Shown here: in pieces, positions 28,490-56,470 of the stretch
How the letters are laid out: the number at the start of each line of letters is the position of its first letter
Numbering within the stretch: position 1 is the first letter of the stretch
NCBI RefSeq assembly: GCF_032854445.1
Contig: NC_088305.1
Location: 27,800,628 to 27,864,627 of the forward strand
Source: Liolophura sinensis
Lineage: Eukaryota; Mollusca; Polyplacophora; Chitonida; Chitonidae
DNA: 64,000 bases
Reading direction: 5' to 3'
Notes under the pieces: model-generated
Seen by the model: only the letters and a program-made list of their open reading frames with translations
Databases searched by the model: none
Told to the model about the DNA's origin: nothing
Made by a program: the position numbers and the translations under genes

Positions 28490-28850
28490 ATTAAGACAAA
28501 AGTGTTAATTTCCCATCAAAATCTCAGTCTGACAAACACAAGATCTCCAGTGGTCGCTAGACTCATGCACAGTTGTCCTTCTGTGGATCAACGAAACTCA
28601 AGCTACCGGCTGATTAATTTCTATACACCCTTTATCATGCAGTCAGCGCACTTGAAAAGGCGAACGCGTTTTCATTGGATTAAAATGTCCATCACTCAAA
28701 CAAGACAACAGTCAAACCCTAGGTGTTAGACTTCTCCTCCCGTATGGGCGCAATCATCACAACCAATTAAGCTCCTTTGTGAGTATTACAAGTTATCTGT
28801 CAACGCTCATGTGAGTCGTCACTACGGGGAGCAAAACGCACTGGTACTCA
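28490..28850 (+). repeat. Module c copy 1: inverted duplicate of the homeobox promoter block
   Basis: Matches the reverse complement of 36640-36980 over its whole length, including AACCCTAGGTGTTAGACTTC, CCAATTAAGCTCC and AAGTTATCTGTCAACGCTCA. At the place of the TATA box (36622-36628 in the homeobox gene) this copy has ACTCAG, so the core promoter looks dead. Confidence 0.85.
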
Positions 28851-29099
28851 GTTGTGGCGAGGTAGGAGATGGTCTTTATTGTTTGAACTTCATCTCTTGA
28901 CGCCTTCCAAATTCCAACCATACATTTATTAACGATTGTATAGCGTTATAAAATCTATATTACTGTTCGTGTCATATTTTCTCAATATCGGGTATTGAAT
29001 AAAAGCATTGATAAGAAAAATTTGAAAAAAATAAACCCATTATAACGATGTATACAAGGTGATGTTACATTGTTCTGAAAGATAATTCTTCCGATTTTG

Positions 29100-29262
29100 C
29101 TCAGGTGGATAATTGTCAGTTTGAAGTAGATCTCGCACGTTCCCAGACATTCCGGATTAACAATAACAACAGTTTCCAGACACTGGCGCCAGCAGACAAC
29201 GGGAGAACACTTGAGACAGAGATTACCATAATCTGTGGTGAAAAAAAAAAAACAAAAAACAG
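29100..29262 (+). repeat. Module b copy 1 (QTLAPAD exon-like block)
   Basis: After an acceptor-like TTTTGCTCAG it reads DNCQFEVDLARSQTF and RINNNNSFQTLAPADNGRT in one open frame. Inverted relative to the copies on the right. Confidence 0.7.
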
Positions 29263-30027
29263 GACAAATGGGAACAATACCAATCTGAGTGACGGATACC
29301 ACACCGACAGGCTGATATCAGGCTAAGAGGCCGATGACACATAGAAGGAAACTGCGTTTATATTCTAAGATTTAATTCTTTGCGAATCCCCCCAACCTCC
29401 CAACAAATGTGCATATATGCCAAAGTAAACAGCTGTATGCTTATCAAAATAGGCCTGTAACAAATATTCAAATACTTTTGTTGTAAAATATTAAGCCAAA
29501 CAAAATTAATTCTAATGAGCAATTGACCTCTTTAAAATATATTTATTCGGCTTGTCAGTTTGCATTTCACCACGATGGTATATTTTAATGAGCCGATTAA
29601 AGTCTTATATTCATTTCTTCTTGTCAACTAAATAAAAACTATAAAAACAAAAATGCTGACAATATCAATAAAATCAGATCTATTTTATAGTCAATACATC
29701 CCTGACTTTAGAGTCAATCGTTGTTTAAATGCAAAAAAAGAGCAACTTAGCCAAAATTCTTCTTCCAAAGGAAGCGAGAATTCAGTTAGAATAACATTGA
29801 ACGCCCGGAAAGTATATATTTTTTTAATCCCTAGTTAGTGACAAATGGGGCGGCAAATAATGATCTGTTATTCATTGCACACATACACCAACACCAATCA
29901 CAAAAACAATAAAAACCTTTGATATAAATATATCTAAAATATGACTCAAAACAATAATAAAAAAAATTGACATCTATATCTCTAAACAAATACGTCTAAT
30001 GGCTACAATGTTTTATTTTCGTTTGTT

Positions 30028-30112
30028 CTATTCCAGACCACTTATAATTTTCAAAGATCACAACCTACAGCCTCTGGCGCCAGATGAGAAAAAATGCAAC
30101 ACTTGAGGGGCT
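30028..30112 (+). repeat. Module a copy 1
   Basis: ATTCCAGACCACTTATAA to GCAACACTTGAGG; its frame reads QPLAPDEKKCNT then stop. The GGCGCCAG core is intact. Confidence 0.65.
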
Positions 30113-30404
30113 ATCTTGTGATAATCCCTTACAGACAAAATAAAATCCCCTCACCACCTTGTCTTTCACAAATTTACATATCCACTTCCTTCTGAGAAAA
30201 AGGCGATTTGGATCAAAACGCTTCACAGTCCCCCATTGTCTGAAGACAAGTGCCGAACGAAAAATGCCCTGTCTCTTTTAAAGCACAAAACATGGAATGG
30301 ATTTACAACCATTCACTTTTTATGTCTTTTTTTTTTTTTGCGGAAAGCTGTTTAAGATTATGTCCTCTTCGTGTGCTTTTTTCATCAGAAAAGTTGTTCT
30401 TACT

Positions 30405-30530
30405 CAAGAATATTTCACTTATATATACGACGGTGGCCAGTTTTACAGTGTGCCTAGGGTAAACCACTGGTTACTGACAAGGAACTGACAGAGTTTCCAA
30501 CATTTGATAAAGCGATTGAAAAACAAGCAT
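30405..30530 (-). repeat. Diverged SINE family 1 fragment
   Basis: Contains CTCAAGAATATTTCACTTAT and ACGACGGTGGCCAG; the rest is degraded. Confidence 0.5.
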
Positions 30531-31660
30531 CTTAACCAGTTACCACTAACCGCCCTCTAAAGAAAAGACATGCTTGCCAAAACACAAAATAGCCATTCAA
30601 CTAATTACTTAATTAAAAATTTAAGTTTATACATGTACGTCTAAAAATATTTAGATAAAGTAGAGTATCGGATCTATATCACTTGACATAGCGAAGATAT
30701 GATAAAACAAGCTCCTAAGGGTTTTAATCCCGCAAAATATTTAATTACAATTTATTTTATATATTGAATTTGTACATACATTTTAATATACAGAGTGCAT
30801 CTAAATCATATTAATTATATATTTTGGTGAAATGACTCAAATGTAATTAATGATCAGTGAATAGCATATTTACGCACGCAACAATGTGGATGTAAGTATT
30901 ATTTGGATACTACATTAAAAGAAAATGATCTCTCACAGAATAGAGTCAGTCGACGTGGATAAGCAAACCAAGAAGCTGCAATTAATCACGCGCCTCAACA
31001 TTAAGATTAATAAAAAAGAGACAGATAAGCTTAAGTGTTGCCTATTCAAAGACATAAATAAAGAACTAGATTAGTCTATATATAACAACAGCTGGACATC
31101 TCGTGTTTGGAAAATTGGGAACAGACTAGTATTTGAATACATAGAGTGTGCGAAAGTCATTATATTATCAGCTGTTTGGCAAGTCGAGATTCGATGAGAT
31201 AATTTCTACCTTTGTATAGCAATTATGCAGCAGCAGACATGTTATATGTGCTGGTGGGTAAGAGAGATATTAAGACAATGGCGCAAGTGAGTTTTAATTT
31301 CGCAAACCAGGTTGCCATCGAGCTCTGACCGGTCTCCGGCTCCTACAAACCTGGCCGTCATCTAATACCAACGAAATGCCTAGAGTTATGGCGCAAGACA
31401 CCAGTCAAGTGATAAGAAGAATACTAGGAGAGGACATCATCTCCGACAGTTTTCGTTAAAAGTTATTAAAAAGAATATCTAATTACTCTTATAAAGTTTT
31501 TCTCCACCCATAAACCTAATCACCGTCATATAAAAGGAAATATTCTTTAGTATACGGCTTAAATCATCACTTAATTAAAGAAATACGGAAATTCAGTGCT
31601 TCATAAAAGACTATCCATACGTATATTATCTCCAACAATTTTCAAATAAAAAAAAATAGC

Positions 31661-31798
31661 GAAGAATACGGACAGGAGAAGTCCACCTTGTCTGCTGCCA
31701 CTGAACGCATTTTCACTAGTGATCTGATGCGTGCTGCTGTTGCACGCGTGTTACTAGAGGATGAAGAGCATTCGGTATGCACTGATACAAGTGTATAA
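31661..31798 (+). pseudogene. Exon-1 remnant of an inverted homeobox paralogue
   Basis: Forty-five codons align with residues 31-83 of the homeobox protein encoded at 36169-36496: EEYGQEKSTLSAAT against KEYDEEKSTLSIAT, then LLEDE against LPEDE, then TDTSV against SDTSV. A seven-residue in-frame gap is present, and a TAA follows directly after TDTSV. Sequence to the left still resembles the gene weakly but has lost the start codon and the EH1 motif. No homeodomain exon follows before the next repeats. It lies on the opposite strand to the intact gene, about 2.8 kb beyond the inverted promoter copy at 28490-28850. Most likely a decayed inverted duplicate; a fast-evolving exon of a live gene is less likely. 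Confidence 0.75.
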
Positions 31799-32049
31799 TT
31801 TTCCAGTTGAAAAGCCTGCTGCAAGGTGACGTTGTCTCGAACACCTTCCTACAAAGACCTAAAAGGAAACGACAATCTTTTTTTAAGACCGTGTTTTATT
31901 ACAAGCTACCAGTGTTTCTCTTTTTCAGCTTCTCCACCGATTGCACCAAAGTCTCTTTTCTCCGAGGGCGGGGAGGGGATGATAACTACAGATCTGAGGG
32001 ATAATCTGGTAACACTACTTTAGTTTGGCTGTCAGGGATAATGGCAAAA

Positions 32050-32145
32050 GTTCCTCAAGTGTTGTGTCTTTTGTCAGCCGGTGCCAGCAGCTGTGGGTTG
32101 TGGTCTTTGGAAATGTTACGTCGTCTGGAATCGAACCAAAAGAAT
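32050..32145 (-). repeat. Module a copy 2
   Basis: Minus-strand frame FDSRRRNISKDHNPQ then LLAPADKRHNT and a stop. It sits about 250 bases right of the exon-1 remnant, in the opposite orientation. Confidence 0.65.
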
Positions 32146-32394
32146 ATGACTAGAATTGTACGAAATAAAAACTTACCAGCGTAATTCTCTTCATATCTTT
32201 CTTACCCACGAGCAGACATAACAAGTCTCCTGCTGAATAATTACCATACAAAGGTGTTGATTATCTCATCGGATTTAGACTTGCCAAATACAAAAAGTTC
32301 AGCTGATAATATAACTTAATTTTGTTGGTATTTGTCTTTTCTTCAGAACAAAAAGACTTTTGCACAATCAGTGTTTTGAAAAGCTAGACAGTTC

Positions 32395-32760
32395 CCACAC
32401 AAGATCTCCAGCAGGTGCTATATATACAGACTAATTCACTTATTATACATGTATTTGTTTGTCTTTGAATCAGCAAGACTTAAGTCTTACAATTGTCTTT
32501 TGGGGGGATTGCTCAAACTGGCGTCTATACGCAGTTGGTATTCCAGTAAACGCGTTTGAAAAAAGACAAATATGTACATGTTTTGATTGGACTAAAATGA
32601 CAAATGCCCAAAGGACACAGCAACCAGACCGTAGGGGACAGAGTTTTCCTCTCGTGCATAAAGGTATAGATATAACCACTACCATCCTGGCCATGATTGA
32701 CTCCAAGCTCTAGAGTTATCCGACAACACTCATCAGAGATAATGTTAGACCAGTGAGGCC
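32395..32760 (+). repeat. Module c copy 2, strongly diverged
   Basis: Aligns with copy 1 at its start (ACACAAGATCTCCAG), around GATTGGACTAAAATG and near TTTTCCTCTCGTGCATA. The middle is degraded. Confidence 0.55.
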
Positions 32761-33389
32761 TTATAAATTCAGATTAACGTCAATGCATTTTTGTTACCTA
32801 ATTGTGCTTAAGTCATGGTGCTAGAAGGCGTGTAATTTGCTATTATTTATGCATTCACATGGACAGTTAAAATAAAACTCTGAGGTAAACTGATAAGAGA
32901 TGTATTTCATCGGTTATGTGTTACCATTTGCCGACACCATTTGTCAGTGTCGTCGCAGGTTTCTCTTGATGACGCCGAAATAAATGCTGAGTTATTTTTT
33001 TCGGGTTAATACTCCTGGTGTTCTATATACTCTCCAAAATATAATCTGTTAAATTTAACAGACAGTCTGATGTCTGAATGATGCTAGAAAATAGTTTGTT
33101 ATTGCAGCAGATTATTCCATTAAATATCACACACATATTCCATTCAACATAAACATTCTATTAGACTAATAGTATATTATGTTGGATATGACAAGAATGC
33201 CTTCTCTAAAACTCCTGTTTACTTCTGGCTACTAATTTGTTGCCTGTATGTGGTGCAATATTAAGTAACATAACAAAAGTTAACAGACAAATACATTGAA
33301 TCAATATACATGCATCATGAGAAGATTCGGCAAGCTATACTCTTCTGTCGGTGTAAATGGGAGTAGACTTGTAACTCTGCTGATTTTCC

Positions 33390-33485
33390 TCACAGAGACA
33401 ATTGTCATTTTGGAGTAGACTTCGCACGTTCTCAGACATTTCGGATTAACAACAACAACATCTTCCAGACACTGGCGCCCACAGT
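33390..33485 (+). repeat. Module b copy 2, truncated
   Basis: Acceptor-like TTTTCCTCACAG, then the frame through GVDFARSQTFRINNNN to QTLAP; breaks off inside the GGCGCC core. Confidence 0.65.
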
Positions 33486-34054: not shown

Positions 34055-34136
<82 letters not shown>

Positions 34137-34494
34137 AATATATACATCAAATATAGAGAAAATTAACCCCCTTCCCCACCAACCGCACGGTTACGTGCGT
34201 GTTTACAGAAACTCGAACTGTGGCATTATAGCATAGCCTGTACTCCAGCTGTCCCAAATTCCGTGGATCGGGAGTGGTATACCTACTGAGCAAACATACT
34301 CTTTACTGTTTCAGTTGGATGTGATGTGCACTTTTGTTGACGAGAGGTTGCCAACTTTAGTGAAAATTTCACCTCATTTCAAGAAAATGTCCTGCAAAGG
34401 TGAAGTATGGTATGGTATTTGGTACTAAGATATAAGAATTGTAAAAAAAAAAACAACTTCAACGATCAATCATGCATTTATGGTTTCAGTTGTA
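33486..34494. other. Intergenic DNA with a (TA)n microsatellite
   Basis: Holds a (TA)n run at 34059-34134 and a scrap of SINE family 1 near 33868-33960. No gene seen. Confidence 0.6.
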
Positions 34495-35215: not shown

Positions 35216-35566
35216 TCACATCCTTGCCGACTGAAATGAAGGAGTAGGTAATCCTGGGGCGTAATGATATCCGAATGGGTGGAAAAAGGGCATAGCAGCA
35301 AAGCCAGGATGAGGCGCAGTTATAGGTGGGTAGCCAGGGACCCTATGAGGAAAAGATGGACCAATCGGTGACGGGAGATATGGTGACGTAGGCAGTGTGT
35401 TACCGGAAGGTAAACACGGAGCGACAGCTGGTGGCAGGGGACAAGGAATTCCAAGGGCGTGTAACTGTGCTACGTCTACTCCACCTGTGGGGAAGGCTGG
35501 CCCGTCGTGTTTCTCGTGTCTCTGTCGCTTTTCTTTCATCCTTCTGTTTTGAAACCAGGTTTTTAC
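35216..35566 (-). CDS. Homeobox gene exon 3 (residues 168-283, stop)
   Basis: Starts after ATTTTAG with VKTWFQNRRMKEKRQR, the recognition helix. Then a Pro/His/Tyr-rich tail with repeated short PS/PF patterns and a TGA stop. Confidence 0.94.
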   Translation of the reverse strand, partial: VKTWFQNRRMKEKRQRHEKHDGPAFPTGGVDVAQLHALGIPCPLPPAVAPCLPSGNTLPTSPYLPSPIGPSFPHRVPGYPPITAPHPGFAAMPFFHPFGYHYAPGLPTPSFQSARM

Positions 35567-36496
35567 CTAAAATAATTATAAAGAAATTTATATTTTCAAT
35601 AACATAATTTGATGATTCTAAACTCACGTTTCAAGTTTAATGAGGAAGCTATGTATGAAAACGCACACAAAAAAATGTGTTTAACGGAAATACTGTAATT
35701 TGCGAACTGTCGGTAAATTTTTGATCAAAATTTAGAATTGTGTTTTCTAATTGGGATACAAAAGAGTACAAAAAGTACGAACCTGTTGATCAGTTAAACC
35801 TAGGTCTTCAGCCAAATCACCACGTTCTGTCGCTGTTAGGTACCGCTGTGTCTCGTACCTTTTCTCCAAGTCATCAATCTGTTTCTGCGTAAAAGCTGTC
35901 CTAGCTTTCTTCTTTCGCTGCAGAATTGGGGCGTCCAAATTCTCCAGACTTGAATCTAAAAACGAAAATATACGTTATATTCTTGGTGTCAGGGTACATT
36001 TTATAACACGGTAAACAACAGATAAAATAACTGAATGAATCAAATAGACTGATATATTTTTTTTTTAAGGAATATTGTGACCAATGTCCTTCCGTGTTCA
36101 AAGAGGAATCTAAAAGTACAGTTTCTGCAAAGTTTTTTTTTGTTACTAAATAAACTATTAATTCTTACCAGCTTGTGGAGATGCAGAAGCCAAGTCCGAG
36201 AGGTCGGACACAGGCGTGGAACGCCCCGAATGCCTTGCGCCAGAGAGTCGTACACTTGTATCACTACATTCTGACAATTCTTCATCCACTCGGAGGTTTT
36301 CATCCTCTGGTAACATGGGTGCCACGGCAGTTCGTATCAGAGCACTAGGGGAAAATTGTACCGCTGCGGTGGCAATGGACAAGGTGGACTTCTCCTCGTC
36401 GTATTCTTTGCATTTTTTAGGGTCGTTATCGGAGTTTATAAGTCTGTCGATGGTAAAACTAAACCCCTTTGACTTCTGTTTGCTAAGCAAAGTCAT
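35216..36496 (-). CDS. NK-class homeobox transcription factor, Vent/Bar-like, 3 coding exons
   Basis: DNA-binding developmental regulator. Exons 36169-36496, 35783-35955 and 35216-35566 join in frame to 283 residues. FSFTIDRLI at 12-20 matches the EH1 motif (FxIxxIL) that recruits Groucho/TLE, so repression is likely. The homeodomain is 124-183, with Arg5, Phe8, Leu16, Trp48, Phe49, Gln50, Asn51 and Arg53 in place. An intron sits between homeodomain positions 44 and 45, a site shared by several NK-class genes. The third helix QVKTWFQNRRMK has Thr47, as in Vent, Bar and Barx. The KARTAFT arm recalls Bar and QRYLTATER recalls Vent. Residues 184-283 are Pro-rich and end SFQSARM. The start ATG is the first after the TATA box. 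I cannot fix the orthology, so no symbol is given. Confidence 0.93.
35783..35955 (-). CDS. Homeobox gene exon 2 (residues 110-167)
   Basis: Starts after TTTTTAG and encodes homeodomain positions 1-44 (KKKARTAFTQKQ to LGLTDQQ). The donor GTTCGT is unusual after the GT, but the frame and the next exon leave little choice. Confidence 0.93.
36169..36496 (-). CDS. Homeobox gene exon 1 (residues 1-109)
   Basis: Holds the EH1 motif (12-20) and an acidic, Ser-rich linker (EELSECSDTSVRLSG). Ends in phase 1 at donor GTAAGA. A diverged inverted copy of its middle lies at 31661-31798. Confidence 0.9.
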
Positions 36497-36621
36497 GATG
36501 CGCTAGTAATGTGGGTAAATATCCGTACAATTATGGACGTAGGCTCTGGGATAGAAGGTTCAAGTTGTGTTTACAGAAGAGCAGTCAACAGACATAATGA
36601 CCAAGTATGACCTGGCCACAA

Positions 36622-36628
36622 TTTTATA
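36622..36628 (-). promoter_or_regulatory. TATA box of the homeobox gene
   Basis: CAGTATAAAATTG on the minus strand, about 125 bases before the start codon; predicts a 5' UTR of roughly 100 bases. The same spot reads CTATAAAA in module c copies at 42079, 43301, 48886 and 55049. Confidence 0.65.
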
Positions 36629-36639
36629 CTGGGGCGTTT

Positions 36640-36990
36640 GCGCTCCCCGTGGTCGCAACTCACGTGAGCGTTGACAGATAACTTGTAATACTCACAAAGG
36701 AGCTTAATTGGTTGTGATGAATGCACCATACGGGAGGAGAAGTCTAACACCTAGGGTTTGATTGTTGTCTTGTTTGAGTGTTGGCCATTTAGTCCAATGA
36801 AAACACGTTCGTCTTTTCAAGCGTGTTAATTGCATAATAAAAGGGTGAATAGAAATTCACCAATTGCAAGCCTGAGTTTTCTTGATTCAAACTGTAAATG
36901 AGTCTAGCGGCCTCTGGAGTTTTTGTGTTTTTGTCTGATTTAGATTTTCATGGGAAATTAACACTTTTGTGTGTTAATTATAACCTTACG
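36640..36990 (-). promoter_or_regulatory. Module c copy 3: proximal promoter block of the homeobox gene
   Basis: Directly upstream of the TATA box. On the plus strand it shows an E-box palindrome CTCACGTGAG, a GATA site in GACAGATAACTT, two CCAAT boxes (TTAATTGGTTG and GTCCAATGAAAAC), an ATTGTT Sox-type core and AACACCTAGGGTTTGATTG. This is the only copy attached to an intact homeobox gene. Confidence 0.7.
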
Positions 36991-37567
36991 TCTGCTCGCG
37001 CTTAAACCAAGTACCAAGCTAATTTACACGAGGATTTTTTAATTTTAAAATCATCAATTGTTGTACAATGCGAATCATATTATTGAACATTTTCACTTAA
37101 TCCCTTTCGAAGGTGCTTTGGTGAAATTTTTGTGTCATGGCCTTTAAATACATCGTAACAATGTAAGAAATTACTGGCCGTTTCTGGGATAGAATATTAG
37201 TTAATTTGTCATATATTTAATTTTGTTTTACGGATAACTTTTACACAAAGAAATGTGTATCGAATTACCTTCCCGAGAAAATATCTGTTTACCCCTCATC
37301 AGCAATCTAATAAAATGAACAAGTGAAAAGAACAACAGATCTTACACATTTGCTCCACAGACGTGTAAAACCAAACCATTGTTTCTTTGTGCATGTTTGG
37401 GAACAACATGTCGCAAAACGATTTTCTTTCATTGATAGTGAGCTGGTTGAACTTAAAGCGCCTTATTACATATTGTTAACTGCCTTGTGACAAGTAATAG
37501 TTGACCGGGCGTATGAGTGAAACGGTTTCTTTTGCGAAGAGATTAAGGCATGCGAAGTGAATTGCTC

Positions 37568-37668
37568 AAGTGTTGGGTCGTTTGACAGCCGACGCCCGAG
37601 GCTAGGGATTGTGGTCTGTGGTAATGTTATGTCGTCTGGAATCGAACCAGAAGAATATAAATGTAAAA
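37568..37668 (-). repeat. Module a copy 3
   Basis: Minus frame FDSRRHNITTDHNP then an in-frame stop. The core is changed from GGCGCC to GGGCGTCGGC. Upstream of the homeobox gene. Confidence 0.6.
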
Positions 37669-38102
37669 CATTTGTGCAAGTAAATCGTATGAGAGAAATA
37701 TATAAATAAATAAATATTGATATATTGATATATATATATATATATCAATGAACAAAAACGCTTTGTTTAATAATTGTTGAATGCTAAACACTAGAGGATT
37801 ATGGGAAAATCAATATATAACGTATTCAAGTGATAAGGTGAATTTTAAAATGCTTGATTTCTGTTGAAAAAAGATTCTGTTAAGGTACGATATTATGTCG
37901 CCGGATTTTCACAATAGAGCCTAGGTATATGTTTTAATTTACTGGCTATTTTCATCACGAAGAATTTTCAATATGAAAATCGGAAGATGCCATTAAACTT
38001 CATACAGGAGACTTTACACGGGAATAATCCTTTAAGTATGGTAAAGACATCTCAGTGTGATATTGCCCTCAAGAAGCAGCCTTCGTAAGGCACGAGAAGT
38101 GA

Positions 38103-38262
38103 TCATTTGTCCTCACCGTTTTCTTTACCACAGATTATGGTAATCTCCATTTCAAGTGTTCTGCCGTTGTCTGCTGGCGCCAGTGTCTGGGAGATGTTGT
38201 TGTTGTTAATCTGGAATGTCTGAGAACGTGTGAGGTCTACTCTCCAAAATGACAAGTATCCC
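38103..38262 (-). repeat. Module b copy 3
   Basis: Frame VDLTRSQTFQINNNN then ISQTLAPADNGRT, LEMEITIICGKENGEDK and a stop; intact GGCGCCAG core and a donor-like GTAAAG. Confidence 0.7.
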
Positions 38263-38702
38263 ATTAGAGCATTCGAATTATTTCTAAAGCACTTACTGTT
38301 CACCAGTACATGTCTTTATTTATCAAATGATCATCGATATTTTTAATGATTGTTTTATTACAAATAAAACATCTATACCCATCATCAAGTGTAATGCTGA
38401 TGAAATTTAAAAATCGAAAAGTAAACTCTAAAATGGCTCAGTCGTTGATACTCGGAAGACTAATGCATGTCCTTTGTTCATGAACATTTCAATAAGAAAA
38501 TTTCATCCATGAAAATAAAATTTTCACAAACGACAATGTTTTGTCGGATAAGGGCCATAATAACACTTGCATTTATTTATCAATCGAAAGCTGCTTCAAA
38601 TATTTTCATGGATTGTTGTTTTACTTTTTAACAATTTGAACACTTAGTGCAAATGCAGTGCCGAACGACGTTTGAGCCGAACGACTTTTGCTGAGAGACT
38701 AC

Positions 38703-38802
38703 CATATGACAAAAGAGCTCTTCAAGCGTTGTGATTTTGTCAACTGGCGCCAGTGGGTTGTGGTCTTTGGAAATGTTATGTAGTCTGGAACCGAAAATAT
38801 AT
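38703..38802 (-). repeat. Module a copy 4
   Basis: Core TGGCGCCAGTGGGTTGTGG kept, but the frame is broken by a stop at the position of DDIT. Confidence 0.6.
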
Positions 38803-38879
38803 TTAACTATTTGTATTGAAGATAAGTTATAATCCTCCCAGTGTGGTATCGGATTCTCAGTGTGATATTTTCCTCAAGA

Positions 38880-39028
38880 AGGAGCCTTCACAAGAGGCGA
38901 GAAATGATCATTTGTCGACACTGTTTTCTTTATCACAGTAATCTCTATCTCAAGTGTTCTCCCGTTATCTACTGGCGCCAGTGTCGGGGAAATGTTGTTG
39001 TTGAATGTCTTAGAACGTGTGAGTTATG
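38880..39028 (-). repeat. Module b copy 4, shortened
   Basis: Keeps CTGGCGCCAGTGTC and the AGAACGTGTGAG end; lacks about 10 bases of the NNNN-coding stretch and part of the ITIIC region. Confidence 0.6.
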
Positions 39029-41090
39029 AGACGAGCATCCATTTGAGGAAAAAAATGACAACCATCCTTTGAGCAAAATCTTGAGAATTGTCTTTTAAAA
39101 ATTCATTGAAGTAAAGCGGTACATGTCTTTATCTATCAAATGATGATCCATCGATTTTTATCATAGTTTTATTAAAAGATAAAGTATCCATTCACCATGA
39201 AGTATAACAATAATCAAATTTGAATATCCATAAAAAAAATTAAAAAAAAGTTCCAAAAAAACTCAGATGAGCATGTTTATATTTTTAAACTAATTTCATG
39301 AGACAGCTTTGAAAATAGAAATACAAAATGATCTTGCTGAGGAAAATGCTTGTCAGCACAGACCTATAACAATCTATGCGTCGAAAACAGACATTCATAT
39401 AACAGCCGTCAACAAAAATTGAAGTTGCAGGTCAAAAATCGAAGGCCAATTCCCAAATCTACGTTTAACATAGACCAACAAAGAACTAAAAAACCATATA
39501 AAGCAACGAAATTAAGACGAAATCTTTATGCTTTTATTTAGTTATAAATCTTTTTTTCCAGGTTGGCGATCATGCAAAGTGTATATTATCGCAATGTTCC
39601 ACTCACGAAGAATACGGGAACCGTTAGGTCTGAATGAGTTAGTGCGGGAGGAGAAGTCTAGCACCTAGGGTTTCACTGTTGTTTTGGCCATTTTAGTCCA
39701 ATCAAAATACCTTCGTGTTTTTGTCTGTTGCATAACAATACGGTGTACTCAAATTCACCAATCGTAAGAGTGTGCTTTGTTGATCCAAAGAAAGATAACT
39801 GTAAATGAGTGTAGCGGTCAGTGCAATTTTTGTGTCTGGCAGATAGGGATTTTCATGAGAAATTAACACTCATGTATCTTAAATTCTTTTCTTTTCAGTT
39901 CAGTGGAGTCCGTATTTAAGAAGGTGAAGAAAGGATGCGGCATAAACGAGAGAAAAGATCCAAGACATATTCCCCAGTGGCTTACAATTTTATAACATCT
40001 GAAGAACTTATGTTACTTTGAACAGTTCATGTCCATGCAAACCAGATTTGAAAAATATTGTACGTTTTGAAGCATCCTTTGGCTATTTTAGGTTGCCACA
40101 GTTTTCTTGTTTGAACGTTGGCCACTTTAAACCAATGAAAACGCCTCGGTCTTCCTTGTGTATGTGTGGCAGTCAATTCTTGGATGACTCTTACAGCAGG
40201 TAGCGAATTAAGCTCACAAATTTTAAAGACAAGAAACTGTACATCTTTGCATCTGGTGCCTCTAGATTTTATTCAGGGGATGTTTACGCAAATTTTTAAA
40301 TTTTCCAATTTTGCTACTCTGTCCACAAACAATGCTCTATCTCAACGCAACTTTGGACGTTTGAGCAAAACGGCTTCTCCTCTTAAAGAGATTACAATAT
40401 GACAAAAGAATTCGGTCACTCTTTGTGATTTGTGATATCAGGTACTCAGTGTGATATTGTCCTCAAGAAGTAACCTCCACAAGAGGCGAGAAGTGATCAT
40501 TTGTCGTCATTGTTTTCTTTACCACAGATTATGGTAATCTCCATTTCAAGTGTTCTACCGTTGTCTGCTGGCGCCAGTGTCTGGGAGATGTTGTTGTTGT
40601 TAATCCGGAATGTCTGAGAACGTGAGAGGTCTACTCCAAACTGACAACTGTCTCCATATCTGAGCAAAGTCCTCAAAATTATCTTAATCTCAGAATGCAT
40701 TTTTGTTTTTATTTTTGTTTGAGCGTTTTCACACGCGTTTCACTGAATACAAGACACCGAGGCAAGGATTTTAAATTCCGGAAATGTATATAATGACTTA
40801 ATTATTAGATGGATGCACATATAGTCAGAAGGAGAAATGCACAATATATAAGTTATTTAACTAAGAAAAACAAAAGCTTTATTGATTTCAGTATTTTATT
40901 TTGCCACCATCATTACTGAAATATTGAGTCAAAATAGCTAGTTAAATTTGGGTTAAAAAAGTATTCGGATATTAAATCTGAACTTAATTCCTTACGCGTA
41001 TATGTAGCAACTTTTATGATCAGAATTGCATATAAATTTGTGCACCGTCGGTGCACACGATTATGGGGAATTATGTCAAACATGTAAGTT

Positions 41091-45325: not shown

Positions 45326-46175
45326 TTTTTTTGACATTTTTTGTTTTCTTTGCTACAAAAGATATTGCAATTAAATATTTCTTTTCTTTCTCCATCTGCA
45401 CACAAGCAGCTGTGTAACGTAAAACCTTTTAAAAACAGATCGCATTTTTACAGAGGAAAACTCGACCGTAAGTATGATTGTCCACGAACATTTTGGCACC
45501 GCGTTTTCAAAGACTGATGTATTCTGGAATCATGACAATAGAGAAGCTCAGGTGTGTCTTTTGTCAGCTGGCGCCAGAGGCTGTGGGTTGAGGTCTTTGG
45601 TAATGTCATGTCGTCTAGAATCAAATAGGTGTGCAACATTATGTAATGATAAGATTTTTGGACATAATTTACTGGTACAAATTTCATTCATGTCCTCTAT
45701 ACTGTTCAAGTATGAAGTTAAACCTTGCTTTGATGTAAAGGTGAATTTCTGCATGTCTTCACCTCACAATACACCTGAACACCACACCAGGGAGAAAAGT
45801 CATGCGAAAATAACATACACTTTGACAGCTTATCAGGATATAGATATAAAAACGATCGATTATCAACCTGGCTTATATTGTGGGTACGTTTTAGGCAAAA
45901 ATTCCTGGTATTGTTTGTTTTTGGCAGTTGACAACAGACAACATATTTCTCATAACGCCGTGTGAAAACGTGGTACATGTACAGTGGAATACTGGTATAA
46001 TTTTATGGACAGGTGGGTGAAATAAGTAACACTGGTTATTATTATTCTCATTGTGACTTTCTGTTCAGAGAGGGACGATATCTCGGTATTAGGTTTAAAT
46101 ATTTGTAAAATATAAACATTGTCTGGGCGATACCAGTTCGAAACTAGGAGATTTTTTGTCAAAAATCATTAGCAG

Positions 46176-46250
46176 CTCTGACGTCAGTCCAAGTTTCCCG
46201 TATAGTGCCAAGCTTCCCGTATAGTGCCAAGTTTCCCATATAGTGACCAC
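46176..46250 (-). promoter_or_regulatory. CRE, triple short repeat and E-box at the left edge of unit 2
   Basis: TGACGTCAG, then three copies of AAGTTTCCCGTATAGTG (AGCTTCCC in the second, CCCATATAG in the third), then ACTCACGTGGAC with an E-box. Units 3 and 4 have the CRE and one copy only (near 51860 and 55984). Confidence 0.5.
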
Positions 46251-49200
46251 TCACGTGGACGTTGACAAATAACTCGTACTACTCATAAAGGAGTTTAATT
46301 GGTTGTGATGAATGCGCCCATACGGGAGGAGAAGTCTAGCACCTAGGGTCTAGCACCCATTTTAGTCCAATCAAAACAAGTTCGTCTTTTTTTCTATTGC
46401 ATAACTATACGGTGTACTGAAATTTATCAGTTGTAAAAGTGTGCTTTGTTGATCCAAAGAAAGATAACTGTAAATGAGTGTTGTGGTCAGTGCATTTTTT
46501 GTGTCTGGCAGATGGGGATTTTCATGAGAAATTAACACTCATGTATCTTAATTATTTTCTCTTCAGTTCAGTGGAGTCCGTATTGAAAGACGTCAAGAGA
46601 TAAGGATGCGGCACAAACGAGAGAAAAGATCCAAGACATATTCCCCAGTGGCTTACAATTTTATAACATCTGAAGAACTTATGTTACTTTGGAGAGTTCA
46701 TGTCCATGCAAACCAGATTTGAAAAATATTGTACGTTTTGAAGCAGCCTTTCGTTATTTTAGGTTGTCACAGTTTTCTTGTTTGAAAGTTGGCTATTTTA
46801 TTTCAATTAAAACACCATGGTCTTTCCAATCCATTATAAGCGTGATTTTGGTTAATTTAAAATGGGATAACTGTAAGTGGGTTCAGCCGCCATCGGGTAC
46901 CTTTTGTATATGTAGTAGTCTGAGACTAACGCTAATTAACCAAATAGTCCATTCTTGGATAACTCTTAGCAGCTAGCGAATTAAGCGGACAAATTTTAAA
47001 GACGAGAAACTTTACTTCTTTGAATTTGATTTCTCTGGATTATATTCAGGGGATGTTTATGCAAATTTTTCAATTTTTCAATTTTACTACTCTGTCCACA
47101 GGTCAATACTCCATCTCAACACAACTTTGTACGTTTGAACAAAAGGCTTCTCTTGCTAAGAGATTACAATATGACAAAAGAATTCGGTCACTCTCTGTGG
47201 TATCGGGTACTCAGTGCGATATTGTCCTCAAGAAGTAGCCTTCACGGGAGGCGAGAAGTGATCATTTGTCGTCATTGTGTTCTTTACCACAGATTATGGT
47301 AATCTCCATTTCAAGTGTTCTACCGTTGTCTGCTGGCGCCAGTGTCCGGGAGATGTTGTTGTTGTTAATCCGGAATGTCTGAGAACTTGAGAGGTCTACT
47401 CCAAACTGACAACTGTCTCCATATCTGAGCAAAGTCCTCAAAATTATCTTAATCTCAGGATGTATTTTTGTTTTTATTTTTGTTTGAGCGTTTTCACATG
47501 CGTTTCACTGAATACAAGGCACCGAGGCAAGGATTTTAAATTCCGGAAATGTATATAATGACTTAATTATTAGATGGATGCAGATATAGTCAGAAGGAGA
47601 AATGCACAATATAAAAGTTTTTTAACTAAGAAAAACAAAAGCTTTATTGATTTCAGTATTTTATTTTGCCACCATCACTACTGAAATATTGAGTCAAAAT
47701 AGCTAGTTAAATTTGAGTTAAAAAAATATTCGCGTATATGTAGCAACTTTTATGATCAGAATTGCATATAAATTTGTGTACAGTCGGTGCACACGATTAT
47801 GGGGAATTATGTCAAACATGTAAGTTGAATTTATCACACCATATTACTCACAATCTGGCCATTTTTAGGGTGTACTGTACTTTTGACGCCTGTAAAGAAT
47901 TTCAAAATGTTCTTGTATTTCACCTTGAGATTTCAAGCTCCAAGCAATGGTTTGGTATCAAGCTAGTTTCAACTGTTGCATTGTGGGATTAGGACGCGAC
48001 AGGTCCTCAAGTGTTATGTCTGTTGTCAGTGGACACGAAAGGTTGTGGACTGTGGTCTTTGGTAATGTTATGTCGTGTGGAATCGAACCGTATAAGATGA
48101 CCTGTTATTATGTTCTTTAACTAAATTCACCGGTTTGTTAAGCTTTATAAACAGACACAATGTTACGCAAGAATCAAAGCAAAATCTTGATTTTAGACTT
48201 GTCATTACGTCACATTGTGTAAGAACAACATGTCTGCTACAAAGGGCAAGCCACGAGGACATCAGATTTAACACCTGTTCCACACACACGTGAAAGCTCA
48301 CAACTATCGCATTGTCTTAATCATTTTGCGTTTTGTAATACAGTAAAGCATTTTCATATGTGCCAGTTTTGTACGGACGAAAGACTGAATTAAAGGGGTG
48401 TCATTAAAGATTATTGTTTTGTAGCGGACGATAGCTGTAATATATCCAAGGGCGTTTTTTTCCTTGGAAATCATGATGTATAACCTTGTAGTGATCGCTT
48501 GGCACAGACAGAGGTCGATCATGGCATGTTTACAGGTATGTATCTGGCTAAATGTTTGGCTAAAAGATGAAGACAAAAGAACTTTTTGTCTTCGTCAACT
48601 TGCACCAGAGGCTGCTGTTTGTGACATTTGATAATTTTTAGCCTGTAATTAGTGATCGCATAGTTCTTTTAAATAAAATTATAAGTTATATACAATTAAT
48701 AATCGTATCATTTCATTTCTATGTGATTATTTTCTTTATTTCTGATTGGTGAGAAAAGTCACGATATCCTGGTAGTTACTGTCAATATTCCTAAAGTTAT
48801 ATACTTTAGATCTGTAACAGATGATTGACATTGGTTGGTGAGGAGTAATTGGCAAATTTGATGACGATATCCGAGCCCGCCACCATTTTATAGAGCAACA
48901 CCCAAGCCCCCCGTAGTGACAACTGAGGTGAGCGTTGACAGATAACTTGTAATACTCACAAAGGAGCCTAATTGGCTGTGATGAATGCGCCCATACGGGA
49001 GGAGAAGTCTAACGCCTAGGGTTTGACTGTTGTCTTGTTTGAGGGTTGGTCATTTTAGTCCCATGAAAACACGTTCGTCTTTTCAAGCGTACTAATTGCA
49101 TAACAAAAGGGTGTTTTTGGACATTCACCTTTTACAAGTGTGAGTCTAGCTGTCACTGGAATTTTTGTGCTTGTTAGATTGGGAATTTCATTGGAAATTA

Positions 49201-51884
49201 ACACTTTTGTTGGTTAATTAATTGTGGGTAAACACTACAACAAGGTAATTGAGCCGGCTAGTTTTAATTTGAAGAAGAGTAATTGTCATACAACATAGAA
49301 CATTTTCACATATTTTCACAAGACAAAGTTTTCTGGTGTTTGTACATCATATTTTACCACCGAATGCTCTCCACACCCAAACATAAAGACCTGTGTAATA
49401 TTGAGTTTTAGCTGATGTGAAAATTTATTTTTGTAATGTATCTTGGTTAAACATGTTGGAGAATATTACAGCATGATAACACACAACTTTAGTTCAATTA
49501 CGTGACGTATCTGTGCTGGCTCTTACACCCTCTATAAAGCAAAAAATGTATTGTTGCTTCGAAACGTTGAAAGAACCGAGCTCTGCAACATTGCGTTCTG
49601 CATCTAAGGAATCCATATATATTTCCTGGCGTTTTGAAATCATTCCCGTTTAGTAAATACCACTAATATAAGTTATGTTTATTCCTCTTAGCTCAAATAT
49701 AGAAACTTCGACAACTTCGCCCTTAAGACGTAAATCCGAACATTTCCTTCTTTTCTTTGTGCGTCTGTGAAAAACATGGCCGATGTAATTTTTTTTCTCT
49801 TTCTTTGAGTGTCTTATTGGAGATACGCTGCTGAATTTATCTAATACATCAGAGGACCACATGGTAATAAGCCATATGCTCCGGGTGTGATATCGGCCTC
49901 TCTGTGTGATATCGGCCTCTCCACTTGATATTGTCTTCACAAGTAGCCTTTACAACAGGCGAGGATACACTTCAAGTGTTCTACCGTTGTCTGCTGGCGC
50001 CAGTGTCTGGGGGATCTTGTGGTTGTTCATTCGAAATGTCTGAGAACGTGCAGGGTTTACGACAAACTGATAACTGTCCATATGAGAAAAATCACAAGAA
50101 TTCTCTTTTGAAATATGCATCTCTTAATATTGTCTTAATTTATTGGAACAAGAAGAAATGAGGGTAGTCAGACATTTGGGATCTCTATAGCGGTTATGAA
50201 ATGAATCACTGAGACCGACAAAAACACATGTGTTTGATAACAAAGTCAGATAGTGCATCCATAAACACAACTGTCTTCGTGTTTATCTTTTAATAGAGTA
50301 AACAAACAAATTGAGGAATTCAATCATTCTGTATCGAGCAGCTGAAGTTTAATCGTTGTCTTATTTGCGCATTGGTCATATTAGTCCAACCCACAAAATC
50401 CGGTGTATTCGAGAATCTTGATTGTATCATAGTGGAATCTGACAAAAAGTTCATCACCTAATACTATAAGAATGAGGCTGGCGTTTCACTGGTGATCTAT
50501 ACAAGGAAATGGTATTCTAGTTTTGTCACGTTTCTCAACGGGGCCTCCGTGGCTCAGTGGATTAAAGCGTTAGCGTAGCGTTATGACCCAGGAGTCTCTC
50601 ACCATTGCGGTCGCTGTGAGTTCAAGTCCAGCTCATGCTGGCGACCGTACGTGAGAAGGTCTGCCAGCAACCTGCGGATGGTCGTGGGTTTCCCCCGGGC
50701 TCTGCCCGGTTTCCACCCACCATAATGCTGGCCACCGTCGTATAAGTGAAATATTCTTGAGTACGGCGTAAAACACCAATCAAAAAAAAAAAAAAAAAAA
50801 AAAATAAGTCTCATCACCTAAATATATCCTAATGAATTCACTTCTGGACTCTTCAAATGTCACACGGGATTTAATATGATTATGCTGATTTGTTTCCATT
50901 TATACATTTTTATACTTGTGTGTTCATTTTATTTTGTTTGATAGCTGAGCGATCGTTGGAATGGTCGCTTACCTTACTTTATGTAACAGCCTCCAGTGTC
51001 TTTTTTTGACATTTTTTGTTTTCTTTGCTACAAAAGAAATTGCAGTTAAGTATTTCTTTTCTTTCTCCATCCGCACACAAGCAGCTGTGTACTGTAAAAC
51101 CTTTTAAAAACAGATCGAATTTTTACAGAGGAAAGCTCGACCGTAAGTATGATTGTCCACGAGGATTTTGGCACCACGTTTTCAAAGACTGATGTATTCT
51201 GGAATTATGACAATAGAGAAGCTCAGGTGTGTCTTTTGTCAGCTGGCGCCGGAGGCTGTGGGTTGAGGTCTTTGGTAATGTCATGTCGTCTAGAATCAAA
51301 TAGGTGTGCAACATTATGTAATGATAAAGTTTTTTGACATAATTTACGGGTATAAATTTCATTCATGTCCTCTTTACTGTTTAAGTATGAAGTTAAACCT
51401 TGCTTTGATGTAAAAGTGACTTTCTGCATGTCTTCACCTCACATTACACGTGAACACTACGCCAGGGAGAAAGGTCATGCGAAAATAACATCAACTTTGA
51501 CAGCATATCTGGATATAGATATAAAAGCGATCGATTGTCAACCTGGCTTATATTGTGGGTATTTTTTCGGCAAAAATTCCTGGTATTGTTTATTTCTGGC
51601 AGTTGACAACAGACAACATATTGCTCATAACGCCGTGTCAAAACGTGGTACAAGTACAGTGTCATAGTTGTATAATTTTATGGACAGGTGGGTGAAATAA
51701 GTAACACTGGTTACTATTATTCTCATCGTGACTTTCTGTTCAGATAGAGACGATATCTCGGTATCAGGTTTAAATATTTGTAAAATATAAACATTGGCTG
51801 GGCGATACCAGTTCGAAACTCGGTGCAGAAGATTATTTGTCAGAAATGATTAGGAGCTGTGACGTCAGACCAAGTTTCCCGTAT
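46240..51884. repeat. Composite tandem unit 2 (c-b-a-c-b-a)
   Basis: Cleanest unit, about 5.65 kb: c 46240-46565, b 47265-47425, a 48000-48095, c 48870-49215 with CTATAAAA at 48886-48893, b 49965-50085, a 51228-51315. Interrupted by a SINE at 50536-50804. Left neighbour 46176-46250 has a CRE and three short repeats. Confidence 0.88.
50536..50804 (+). repeat. Young full-length SINE, family 1, with poly(A)
   Basis: tRNA-like head (GGGCCTCCGTGGCTCAGTGG, then TGTGAGTTCAAGTCC), intact body, tail AACACCAATCA and a run of about 23 A. The matching point in unit 1 (44839, TTTCTAATAAGTCTC) is empty, so the insertion came after the units duplicated. Confidence 0.93.
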
Positions 51885-54800
51885 AGTGACCACTCACGTG
51901 AACGTTGACAGATAATTCGTATTACTCATAAAGGAGCTTAATTGGTTGTGATGAATGCGCCCATACGGGAGGAGAAGTCTAGCACCTAGGGTTTCACTGT
52001 TGTTTTGTTTGAGTGTTGGCCATTTTAGTCCAATCAAAATACCTTCGTCTTTTTGTCTGTTGCATAACAATACGGTGTACTCAAATTCACCAATCGTAAG
52101 AGTGTGTTTTGTTGATCCAAAGAAAGCTAACTGTAAATGAGTGTACTGGTCAGTGCAATTTTTGTGTCTGGCAGATGGGGATTTTCATGAGAAATTAACA
52201 CTCTTGTATCTTAATTATTATCTCTTCAGTTCAGTGGAGTCCGTATTGAAAGACGGAAAGAGATAAGGATGCGGCACAAACGAGAGAAAAGATCCAAGAC
52301 ATCTTCCCCAGTGGCTTACAATTTTATAACATCTGAAGAACTTATGTTACTTTGGACTGTTCATGTCCATGCAAACCAGATTTGAAAAATATTGTACGTT
52401 TTGAAGCAGCCTTTCGTGATTTTAGGTTGCCACAGTTTTCTTGTTTGAACGTTGGCCACTTTAGTCCAATGAAAACGCCTTGGTCTTCCCTGTGTCTATA
52501 TGGTAGTCTGAGACTAACGCTAGTTAACCAAATTGCCAATTCTTGGATAACTCTTATAACAGCTAGCGAATTAAGCTGACAAATTTTAAAGACGAGAAAC
52601 GTTACATCTTTGCATTTGATGACTCTGGATTATATTCAGGGGATGTTTACGCAAATTTTTAAATTTTCCAATTTTACTACTCTGTCTACAAATAATGCTT
52701 CAACTCAACACAAATTCGGACGTTTGAGTAAAACGGCTTCTCCTCTTAAAGAGATTACAATGTGACAAAAGAATTCGGTCACTCTTTGTGATATCGGGTA
52801 CTCAGTGTGATATTGTCCTCAAGAAGTAACCTCCACAAGAGGCGAGAAGTGATCATTTGTCGTCATTGTTTTCTTTACCACAGATTTTGGTAATCTCCAT
52901 TTGAAGTGTTCTACCGTTGTCTGCTGGCGCCAGTGTCTGGGAGATGTTGTTGTTGTTAATCCGGAATGTCTGAGAACGTGAGAGGTCTACTCCAAACTGA
53001 CAACTGTCTCCATATCTGAGCAAAGTCCTCAAAATTATCATAATCTCAGGATGCATTTTTGTTTTTTTTATGTTTGAGCGTTTTCACATGCATTTCACTG
53101 AATACAAGACACCGAGGCAAGGATTTTAAATTCCGGAAATGTAGGTTATATAATGACTCAATTTTAAATGGATGCACATAAAGGGAGAAGTAGGAATGCA
53201 CAATATACAAGTTATGTAACTAAGAAAAGCAAAAACTACTGCATCACTACTGAAATGTTGAGTCAAAACAGCGATTTTTTTTCGGAGTTACACTTCTAGT
53301 GTAGGCCTATTATGCAAGACTTGTCAGTGGATCTACTGGATTTTGTAGAATGCATGTTTTTATGTAAATGTTTTTTATTTCTGTAAAACAAAGTTTGGTA
53401 TAAATGATATATTTATTTCCAAAGAGAACAGAATTTGCCTATCTTAAGGCAATGTAAACGTTTATATAGTTGGCATGTATTCTGTTCTGTCTGCGAGAAT
53501 GATAACAGTTTTTATATATAATTTTACACACAAAATTATCAGATAATTTTAAGGTTCTGTAGAGATGAGGTACATCGGACAGGATTTAATATTTTAACTT
53601 TACACATGGTTATGTACATTTATTTAATATTTTCTTTAAAGAGTATTTTTTGTGGAATGGCCGCTTGAGTCGCTTTATGTCAGAACTATATGTCTTACTG
53701 AGAAAGCACACGAAGCGAAGATCCTCTTCGCCACATTTTCATCAGACACTTAACTCAACATTGTGAGATGTTTTTCGTGATACATTTCTGATGACGCCAA
53801 TACATCTTCACTCGGATCCTTCGTATCACAGAATCTCTGTTGTATTACAGATATTTGGGGTCAAGAGCAGCTTTTTAATTTGAGTTAAAATACTTTCAGA
53901 TATTAAATCTGAACATAATGCCTCACATGTATATCTATCAACTTTTATGATCAGAATTGCATATAAATTTGTGCACAGTTGTTGTACATGATTATGGGGA
54001 ATTTTTTCAAACACGTAAGTTGAATTTATAACACAATATTCCTCACAATCTAATTTCACCCTAATTTTTAGGGTATGCTGTAATTTTGACGTCTGTAAAG
54101 AGTTTCAAAATCTTTTTATATTTGACCTCGAGATTTCAATCTCCAAGCAGTGGTTATGCATAACGCTGTTTTTGACTGTTGCATTGTGGGATTATGCCGC
54201 GACAGGTCCTCAAGTGGTACGAATGTGATGCCGTGTGGAATCGAACGGGTATAGGATGACCTATCATTATGTTCTTTAACTAAATGCACCGGTTTGTTAA
54301 ACTTTATAAACAGGCACAATGTTACGCAAGAGTCAAAGTAAAATCTTGATTTTATACATGTCATTACGCCACATTGTGTAAGAACAACATGTCTGCTATA
54401 AAGGGCAAGCCAAGAGGACATCAGATTTAACACCTTTTCCACACACACATGAATGCTCACAACTATGGCATTGTCTTAATCATTTTGCGTTTTGTAATAC
54501 AGTAAAGGCGTTTTCATATGTGCCAGTTCTGTACGGACAAAAGATTGGATTAAAGGCGTCTCGATAAAGGTTATTGCTTTGTTGCGGACGATAGCTGTAA
54601 ATTTACCGAAGCCTTCTTTTCCTCGGAAATCATGATGTATAACATTGTAGAGATCTCTTGGCACAGACAGAGGTCGACCATGACATGTTCACACGTATGT
54701 ACCTGGCTAAATGTTTGGCTAAGAGATGAAGACAAAAGAACTTTTTGTCTTCGTCAGGCTGGTGTTTGCGACACTTGATACTTTTAGCGTGTAATTAGTG

Positions 54801-56019
54801 ATGGCATAACTCTTAAATATAAAATTATAATGTATATACAATGTATATGCAATTAATAGTCGTATCATTTTATTTCTATGTGATTATTTTCTTTATTTCT
54901 GATTGGTGAGAAAAGTCACGATATCCTGGTAGTTAGTGTCAACATCCCTAAAGTTATAGGCCTATAGTTTGTATTTGTAACAGATGATTCAGGTTGGTTG
55001 ATGTAGAGTAATTGGCAGATTTGGTGACGATATCCGAGCCCGCCACCATTTTATAGAGCGGCATCCATGCCCCCTGTAGTGACAAGTCAGGTGAGCGTTG
55101 GCAGATAACTTTTAATACTCACCAAGGAGATTAATTGGTTGTGATGAACACGCTAGTACGAGGGAAGGCTAACACGTACGATTTGATTGTTGTCTTGTTT
55201 GAGGGTTGGTCATTTTAGTTCGTGTTTTCAGGCGTACTAATTGCATAACAAAAGAGTGTTTTTGGACATTCACCTATTACAAGTGTGAGTCTGGCGGTCT
55301 CTGGAATTTTTGTGCTTGTTAGATTGGGATTTTCATGGAAATTAACGCTTTTGCTGGTTAATTAATTGTAACGTGGGTAAACACTACAACACGGTAATTA
55401 AGCCGGCTAGTTTTAATTTGAAGAAGAGTAATTGTCATACAATAAAGGACATATTCACATATTTTCACAAGACAAAGTTTTCTGGTGTTTGTACATCATA
55501 TTTTACTACTGAATGCTCTCCACACCCAAACATAAATGCCACTGATATAAGTTATGTTTATTCCTCCCAGCTCAAATATAAAAACTTCGACAACTTCGCC
55601 CTTTAGATATAAACGAGTAACTTTACATTACGTAGATTTACGTAGCTTTACGAGGATTCTCACCGCTGTTTATCTTGTAGGTAAGTTTTTCGGAAAAAAT
55701 TCCTGGTATTGTTTTTTTTCTGGCAGTTGACAACAGACAAACATATTGCTCTTAACGCCGTGTGAAACCGTGGTACGTGTACAGGGGACTATTGGTATAA
55801 TTTTATGACAGGTGGGTGAAATAAGTAACACTGGTTATTATTACTCTCATTATGACTTTCTGTTCAGACAGTTACGATATCTCGGTATCAGGTTTAAATA
55901 TTTGTAAAATATAAACATAGCCTGGGCGATACCAGTTCGAAACTCGGTGCAGAAGATTATTTGTCAGAGATGATTAGGAGCTCTGACGTCAGACCAAGTT
56001 TCCCGTATAATGACCACTC
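51885..56019. repeat. Composite tandem unit 3, partly deleted
   Basis: c 51885-52230, b 52850-53020, a remnant 54195-54255 (GGCGCC core deleted), c 55020-55365 with CTATAAAA at 55049-55056. The second b and most of the second a are missing between about 55600 and 55690. Bases 53260-53880 do not match the other units. Confidence 0.82.
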
Positions 56020-56470
56020 ACGTGGACGTGGACAGAAAACTCGTACTACTCATAAAGGAACTTAATTGGTTGCGATGAATACAGATAGGGATTTTTCACT
56101 GAGAAATTAACACTCATGCATCTTAATTNNNNNNNNNNNNNNNNNNNNNNNNNNNNNNNNNNNNNNNNNNNNNNNNNNNNNNNNNNNNNNNNNNNNNNNN
56201 NNNNNNNNNNNNNNNNNNNNNNNNNNNNNNNNNNNNNNNNNNNNNNNNNNNNNNNNNNNNNNNNNNNNNNNNNNNNNNNNNNNNNNNNNNNNNNNNNNNN
56301 NNNNNNNNNNNNNNNNNNNNNNNNNNNNAAATTTATCAGTTGTAAAAGTGTGCTTTGTTGATCCAAAGAAAGAAGACTGTAAATGAGTGTAGTGGTCAAT
56401 GCAATTTTTGTACGTGACAGATAGAGATTTTCATGAGAAATTAACACTTATACGTCTTAATTAGTTTCTT
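56020..56470 (-). repeat. Unit 4 start: module c interrupted by the assembly gap
   Basis: Before the gap the block jumps from GAATACAGATAGGG straight to the far end of module c (GAGAAATTAACACTC). After the gap the middle and the same far end appear again (GAGAAATTAACACTTATACG), so the order is not that of any other copy. Confidence 0.75.
56129..56328. other. Assembly gap of 200 N
   Basis: Exactly 200 unknown bases inside the tandem array; the round number suggests a placeholder length. Confidence 0.99.

Follow-up and report, generated by a model that had tools for sequence, protein, structure and literature searches.

The mammalian ETCHbox/LEUTX loci (PMC8208926) are an example of tandem homeobox arrays shaped by local duplication, gene loss and gene conversion, and for a mollusc, the Pacific oyster, passages in PMC5322547 report that NKL homeobox genes have multiplied locally, with BarH genes linked and with Tlx and Emx duplicated in tandem. 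Promoters repeated without their gene are described, in excerpts of PMC5765358, for ribosomal DNA (rDNA), where ribosomal RNA (rRNA) spacer promoters are RNA polymerase I promoters functioning as part of enhancers. Here, we analyzed a 64,000-nucleotide stretch of the chiton Liolophura sinensis genome (the window; contig C11, positions 27,800,628–27,864,627), in which the promoter block of a single homeobox gene, termed P, recurs with two further elements, Q and R, in a tandem array. As at the ETCHbox/LEUTX loci, the array points to local homeobox duplication, gene loss and gene conversion; unlike there, its copies are mostly promoter, with at most the first codons, and amplification appears to have continued after coding sequence was lost. 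Likewise, the oyster passages describe gene copies, whereas the chiton array consists of promoter copies. The likeness to rDNA spacers, as excerpted, lies in gene-less duplicated promoters repeated upstream of a gene and, except for inverted copies on its far side, in one orientation; unlike those, P is a presumed RNA polymerase II (Pol II) TATA promoter. Among titles and abstract openings in the open-licence literature, none described this array.

Our best reading, which we consider rather probable, is that truncated starts of the gene form a local tandem array under birth and death, with gene conversion between its members. That the array arose locally and in tandem from such truncated starts is well supported, and drift of most copies at present is moderately supported. 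We infer in what order the events took place, that the truncation happened once and is shared, that unequal crossing over was the driving mechanism and that most copies have little present function.

Recurrence and confinement of the promoter block

The intact three-exon homeobox gene lies at 35216–36496 on the minus strand, a correction to the earlier note that had drawn attention to this DNA, and its own block P, the reference copy, spans 36594–36981 (minus strand) with a TATA box TATAAAAT at about 36621–36628, a CCAAT box and a 27-base core. That note had placed the block at ten further positions, all of which self-comparison recovered, the one at 32.4–32.7 kb weakly. Matches besides the reference copy lie at 28487–28879 and 32568–32655 (both inverted), 39645–39882, 41974–42237, 43155–43610, 46249–46555, 48906–49220, 51892–52218, 55042–55364 and 56016–56083 plus 56376–56463; copy ends differ slightly between two self-comparisons. 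Two motifs singled out as conserved are indeed overrepresented in the window, with nine matches to GACAGATAACTTGTAATACT at ≤3 mismatches (0 expected from 100 shuffles) and eight to AACACCTAGGGTTTGATTG (0.06 expected).

P proved to be one part of a larger P-Q-R monomer. Upstream of the gene, the three elements recur in one orientation and mostly in the order P-Q-R, with all copies from 37 to 58 kb oriented alike and inverted copies confined to the gene's far side. Monomers of about 2.9 kb fall into two diverged types, A and B, that alternate as tandem pairs; with copies named by type and kilobase position (for example, A39 or B48), type A P copies lie at 39.6, 46.2, 51.9 and 56.0 kb and type B copies at 42.0, 43.2, 48.8 and 55.0 kb. 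Neighboring A–B pairs repeat over long stretches at shifts of 5.6 to 6.8 kb and 82–93% identity, figures that include pairs two units apart. The array thus presents adjacent tandem copies of one ancestral segment, as a birth-and-death array should. Q is itself related to R: in a test of five of nine R and four of ten Q copies, all 20 R–Q pairs scored 5.0 to 9.7 standard deviations above shuffles, and no shuffle reached the score except in one pair, where 1 of 500 did. In total, 19 Q/R copies were aligned. Candidate motifs are a GATA-like AGATAA in P and an NK2-like TCAAGTG and a SMAD-like GGCGCC in Q/R, and a stretch of R may resemble a tRNA B box.

Finding the block in hundreds of unrelated places, which the earlier note had named as the sign of an ordinary transposable element, was not borne out by a search of the genome (609,464,459 bases, 632 contigs; C11, 32,819,725 bases), whose counts are lower bounds. 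All of the at least 13 pieces matching P lie within 28 kb, from C11:27,829,114 to 27,857,090, the weak 32.4-kb copy not being among them. Likewise, all ten pieces matching Q and all seven matching R belong to this locus, and no dispersed copies of the three elements were found elsewhere by this search. Pattern matches behaved in the same way, with six hits to the 27-base P core at ≤3 mismatches and eight to a Q/R core pattern, all in the locus and none for the reversed-pattern controls. P, found at this locus alone in the lower-bound counts, thus lacks the distribution expected of a dispersed transposon.

Gene remnants in the array and in sister clusters

The earlier note had also held that only one copy has a homeobox gene attached. 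One intact gene is indeed present, but the other copies are not wholly gene-less. B43, B48 and B55 match the gene from the TATA box through the 5′ untranslated region (5′ UTR) to about the ninth codon (gene positions 36469–36628), the matches lying at 43150–43307, 48735–48892 and 54892–55062; B42 matches in the 5′ UTR only (41974–42085; on the gene side from 36515). In all six copies with an alignable place, the ATG is absent, replaced by GTG in B43, B48 and B55, which also have a stop at about codon nine, and by other letters in A46, A51 and A56. These three type A copies lack a TATA box at the matching place, and A copies match the gene leader weakly (z 5.9 and 6.8). Past the truncation point, B48, A51 and A56 gave no match to the coding sequence of the gene. 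Four gene-less copies, at 42, 43, 48 and 55 kb, do carry CTATAAAA as had been claimed; they are not independent retentions, however, because all are of type B and descend from one copy.

Beyond the inverted P, a broken exon-1 fragment at 31610–31795 (plus strand; tblastn E 1.2e-6; 78% at the DNA level) shows 47% amino acid identity to residues 15–82 before a stop. No other credible exon remnant appeared in tblastn. Dead or truncated gene parts, a hallmark of birth-and-death arrays, are therefore present as 5′ UTR and start-codon remnants and as exon-1 scrap.

A protein search located related homeobox loci on C11 at 25.84–25.86 and 28.26–28.27 Mb, and we examined 45 kb in total from these sister clusters (C11:25.838–25.868 and 28.257–28.272 Mb; L001–L005). 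In the first, four three-exon sets are stop-free where they align, and three further copies consist of exon 1 only and carry stops; in the second, two such stop-free sets are accompanied by several broken pieces. Within the first, two 4.4-kb segments are 99.93% identical and end at a 200-N gap; this pair, which holds two each of the four stop-free sets and the three dead copies, may be a haplotype duplicate. The sister clusters resemble the array locus in their three-exon structure and the KTWFQNRRMKEKRQR motif, and they have dead copies between open genes; they differ from it in having kept several open genes and in giving no blastn match to P, Q or R with E below 0.1. Their exon-1-only dead copies imply that this subfamily repeatedly leaves headless copies.

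On the birth-and-death reading, the 5′ end of an NKL-type gene (R, Q, P, 5′ UTR and about nine codons) would have been tandemly duplicated with a breakpoint inside exon 1, after which the ~2.9-kb monomers would have diverged into types A and B and unequal exchange would have multiplied the A–B pair in tandem. A second gene copy, in inverted orientation, would meanwhile have decayed to the exon-1 scrap. Ectopic gene conversion between copies would have acted within the still-similar P block, and P may remain recognizable partly because of it.

Divergence, exchange and competing explanations

Comparison of A with B monomers shows P, Q and R well kept and only traces of the spacers; the three elements are therefore islands that something has preserved or renewed. 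In five of seven like-segment comparisons, A–B spacer scores exceeded all 200 shuffles (z 3.0–6.4) and in two they did not (z 1.4 and −0.9), while an unlike-segment comparison reached z 3.5, below its highest shuffle. The spacers are thus likely homologous, although not cleanly so.

For recent divergence, we compared nine recently duplicated segment pairs, which overlap and are not independent; P is present in seven. Differences in P versus other sequence amounted to 7.2 versus 5.9%, 11.4 versus 10.3%, 8.9 versus 7.0%, 3.3 versus 8.7%, 8.0 versus 10.1%, 9.9 versus 8.6% and 11.0 versus 8.1%, so that P was not clearly slower than its flanks in six of the seven. Among four pairs tested singly, A39–A51 was the sole one with a clearly slower P (p 0.004). 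Type A Q was lower in three pairs, in one of which the slow tract (40.49–41.6 kb) runs well past Q, and type B Q was not slower (9/141 versus 5.9%). Comparison of R with the 54-kb unit gave 5/44 differences plus a 46-nt gap. Combined P, Q and R divergence fell below the rest at p<0.05 in two of nine pairs (overlapping, uncorrected). Purifying selection on the copies is suggested by the old A–B comparison and mostly not by the recent pairs. The A–B islands had led us to expect that all three elements are strongly constrained today; the recent pairs did not bear this out, and most gene-less P copies thus give no hint of constraint at present.

Exchange between copies is visible in the type B blocks. 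Judged by their flanks, B43 and B48 are sisters, 5.9% apart and both about 10% (10.1–10.3%) from B55. A tree of the copies, as proposed in the earlier note, placed B55 within P with B43 and B42 and left B48 outside (support 86 and 97%); the 32-kb copy was left out of both P trees and the 39- and 56-kb copies out of the second. Among columns in which one of the three B copies stands alone, the state of other types occurs in 14 of 28 for B48, compared with 4 of 29 for B43 and 7 of 82 for B55. An unbroken run in P accounts for eleven of the 14; it includes a three-base indel, and within it B43 equals B55. Two routes could have produced this tract: transfer into B48 from a copy of another type, or exchange between the lineages of B43 and B55. 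A birth-and-death array with conversion predicts such exchange, seen here as one discordant P-core tract together with the tree discordance, and the islands can thus be attributed in part to it.

Several observations weigh against a history of truncation, drift and exchange alone. When gene-less A copies are compared with gene-less B copies, identity is 78–89% in the P-proximal core (six pairs) and 61–64% in the adjacent leader remnant (four pairs), with Fisher p values of 2.7e-5, 9.8e-7 and 0.0032 for three pairs, the third combining P of B55–A51 with the leader of B55–A56; core conservation is more than plain decay predicts. Five copies, belonging to types G, I and B, share the 27-base core without a difference, although no A copy comes within 3 mismatches of it. 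In A39–A51, P differs by 3.3% and Q by 1.6% against 8.7% elsewhere, and R is low in divergence in R45–R51 (2/114, p 0.027) and in the 41/42–48 kb pairs (2/89, given without a p value); all of these observations could reflect selection on some copies. Furthermore, 0.53, 0.045 and 0.55 of shuffles reach the score of A versus B DNA past the truncation point. Because the DNA beyond the break gives no clear A–B match, one truncation before the A/B split is the simplest reading by parsimony only.

These observations feed the strongest rival, a working regulatory array in which P, Q and R copies would jointly enhance the one gene or act as its decoy promoters, much as repeated spacer promoters enhance rRNA genes. 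The colinear placement of the islands between barely alignable A and B spacers, the uniform orientation of the 37 to 58 kb copies upstream of the gene, the unchanged 27-base core in types G, I and B and the low divergence of P and Q in A39–A51 and of R45–R51 are all consistent with it, and the candidate GATA-, NK2- and SMAD-like motifs would fit as well. Yet P is not clearly slower than its surroundings in six of seven recent pairs, type B Q is no slower, the 40.49–41.6 kb tract extends far beyond Q and exchange between copies offers another cause for the islands, and we regard such an array as unlikely, at roughly one chance in a handful. Duplicated enhancers acting on one gene, an explanation offered in the earlier note, share this low standing for the same reason, most recent P copies being no slower than their surroundings. 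A more specific version, a Pol II counterpart of rDNA spacer promoters in which P and Q/R copies came under selection after truncation, some would boost or time the gene and conversion would homogenize the core, is by analogy conceivable and a little more doubtful still. Alternatively, each unit might carry the promoter of an unrecognized transcript, such as a long noncoding RNA or the message of a small protein, which would account for the CTATAAAA and partial leader retained by type B; with no TATA box at the matching place in A46, A51 and A56, no Rfam match at gathering scores in 26000–64000 and no tRNA detected by ARAGORN in the whole window, we find this improbable.

An assembly artefact, with unresolved haplotypes or collapsed repeats inflating the array, could draw on the 200-N gap in the 56-kb copy, the 99.3–99.6% likeness of the 41–42 and 42–43 kb copies and the 99.93% sister-cluster pair ending at a 200-N gap. 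However, other long unit pairs are 82–93% identical, a divergence well beyond the heterozygosity of 1.24% reported for this chiton, as Liolophura japonica, in PMC11068029, which makes an inflated array very improbable. That a transposable element or satellite inserted next to the gene is hardly credible: copies are many, Q and R are mutually related and ~100 bp of the 2.5-kb unit, lying outside all three elements, also match at four sites distributed over C1, C4 and C13, but no copy of P, Q or R was found outside the locus, by lower-bound counts, and P runs directly into the leader and codons of the gene itself. A short interspersed nuclear element (SINE) is disfavored by the same search, and the B-box-like stretch of R had no counterpart in the ARAGORN and Rfam results. 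Taken together, the explanations first offered for the block are partly supported. Remnants of a larger homeobox cluster hold in modified form, as truncated 5′ ends, an exon-1 fragment and dead copies in the sister clusters; as for a segmental repeat that captured the promoter, tandem repetition does exist, but the promoter belongs to its origin and is no passenger.

Under the birth-and-death reading, the control region of a developmental gene, rather than its coding part, would have been amplified and reshuffled by local recombination. If some copies work, the array would exemplify how unequal exchange can naturally alter the number of enhancers of a homeobox gene. If all are inert, conserved-looking noncoding islands in tandem arrays can stay alike through exchange between copies, a warning against calling enhancers from conservation alone.

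Features along the array and in the window

On the gene's far side, the inverted P (28487–28879, plus strand) is 81% identical to the gene's P, with 117 of 121 ungapped positions identical in the proximal core, and is followed by inverted Q (29078–29250, minus) and R (30012–30144, minus). Past the exon-1 remnant come an R in plus orientation (32019–32147), a very degraded inverted P (32395–32716, plus; 88 bp, 73%, E 4e-7) and an inverted Q fragment (33370–33479, minus). Upstream of the gene, where P copies lie on the minus strand and Q and R on the plus strand, the gene's own R (37565–37648) and Q (38051–38264) are joined by R-like (38690–38815) and Q-like (38829–39023) sequences. A39 (39645–39882), whose gene-proximal half is not recognizable, precedes a type A Q (40431–40685) and R (41265–41353). 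B42 (41974–42237) retains the promoter-proximal part, CTATAAAA and a partial 5′ UTR, is 99.6% identical to the next copy and is followed by R (42416–42504); B43 (43155–43610), with CTATAAAA, 5′ UTR and start region (ATG to GTG, early stop), is followed by a type B Q (44360–44500) and R (45512–45625). Adjacent B segments in 41091–43459 are 99.3–99.6% identical at shifts of 1151 and 1222, representing either a very recent duplication or a haplotype or assembly artefact.

Farther upstream, A46 (46241–46555; TATA not found at the matching place) comes with a type A Q (47196–47450) and R (48001–48089), and B48 (48760–49220; CTATAAAA, 5′ UTR and start region), in which core and flanks disagree on B kinship, comes with a type B Q (49968–50108) and R (51187–51300). 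A51 (51884–52218) is followed by a type A Q (52787–53039) and an R with an internal deletion (54209–54247; pattern matches at 54209 and 54234), which matches the 46-nt alignment gap and stands outside the 19-copy alignment. B55 (54923–55364) again has CTATAAAA, 5′ UTR and start region, A56 (56008–56463) is interrupted by the 200-N assembly gap at 56129–56328 and the last Q of the array lies at 58032–58229. Between the last P and this Q, a 48-bp minisatellite of seven copies (56773–57108) partly matches a sister cluster.

The gene itself has coding exons at 36496–36169, 35955–35783 and 35566–35216, with open frames and GT–AG introns read from the sequence. Its product is a 283-residue protein with a homeodomain (Pfam Homeodomain, E 1.3e-22), classified by comparison with solved structures only. 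In the PDB, the lowest E value belonged to a two-domain engrailed construct (6m3d, 9.8e-22), and the best single-domain matches were ‘BarH-like 1’ (2dmt, 8.8e-18), 3a01_A ‘homeodomain-containing protein’ (1.7e-17) and ‘BarH-like 2’. On this comparison we label the gene provisionally as NKL-type, Barx/BarH-like; Vent, considered at first, became less likely as the PDB matches leaned to BarH-like proteins.

Elsewhere in the window, a dispersed repeat of ~90 bp, 80–92% alike, occurs at 4878–4962, 7129–7221, 8743–8818, 50701–50796, 60354–60446 and other positions, and also in a sister cluster (L001:5262–5357). An exon-like open reading frame (ORF) at 12877–13320 (minus strand) shows a presumed resemblance to mitochondrial HSP60/chaperonin. 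Finally, a tandem array of a 33-bp unit at 14629–15478 (18 copies in 14630–15223) contains TGTGACCCAGGACATGGGATACAAGG and long repetitive ORFs on both strands.

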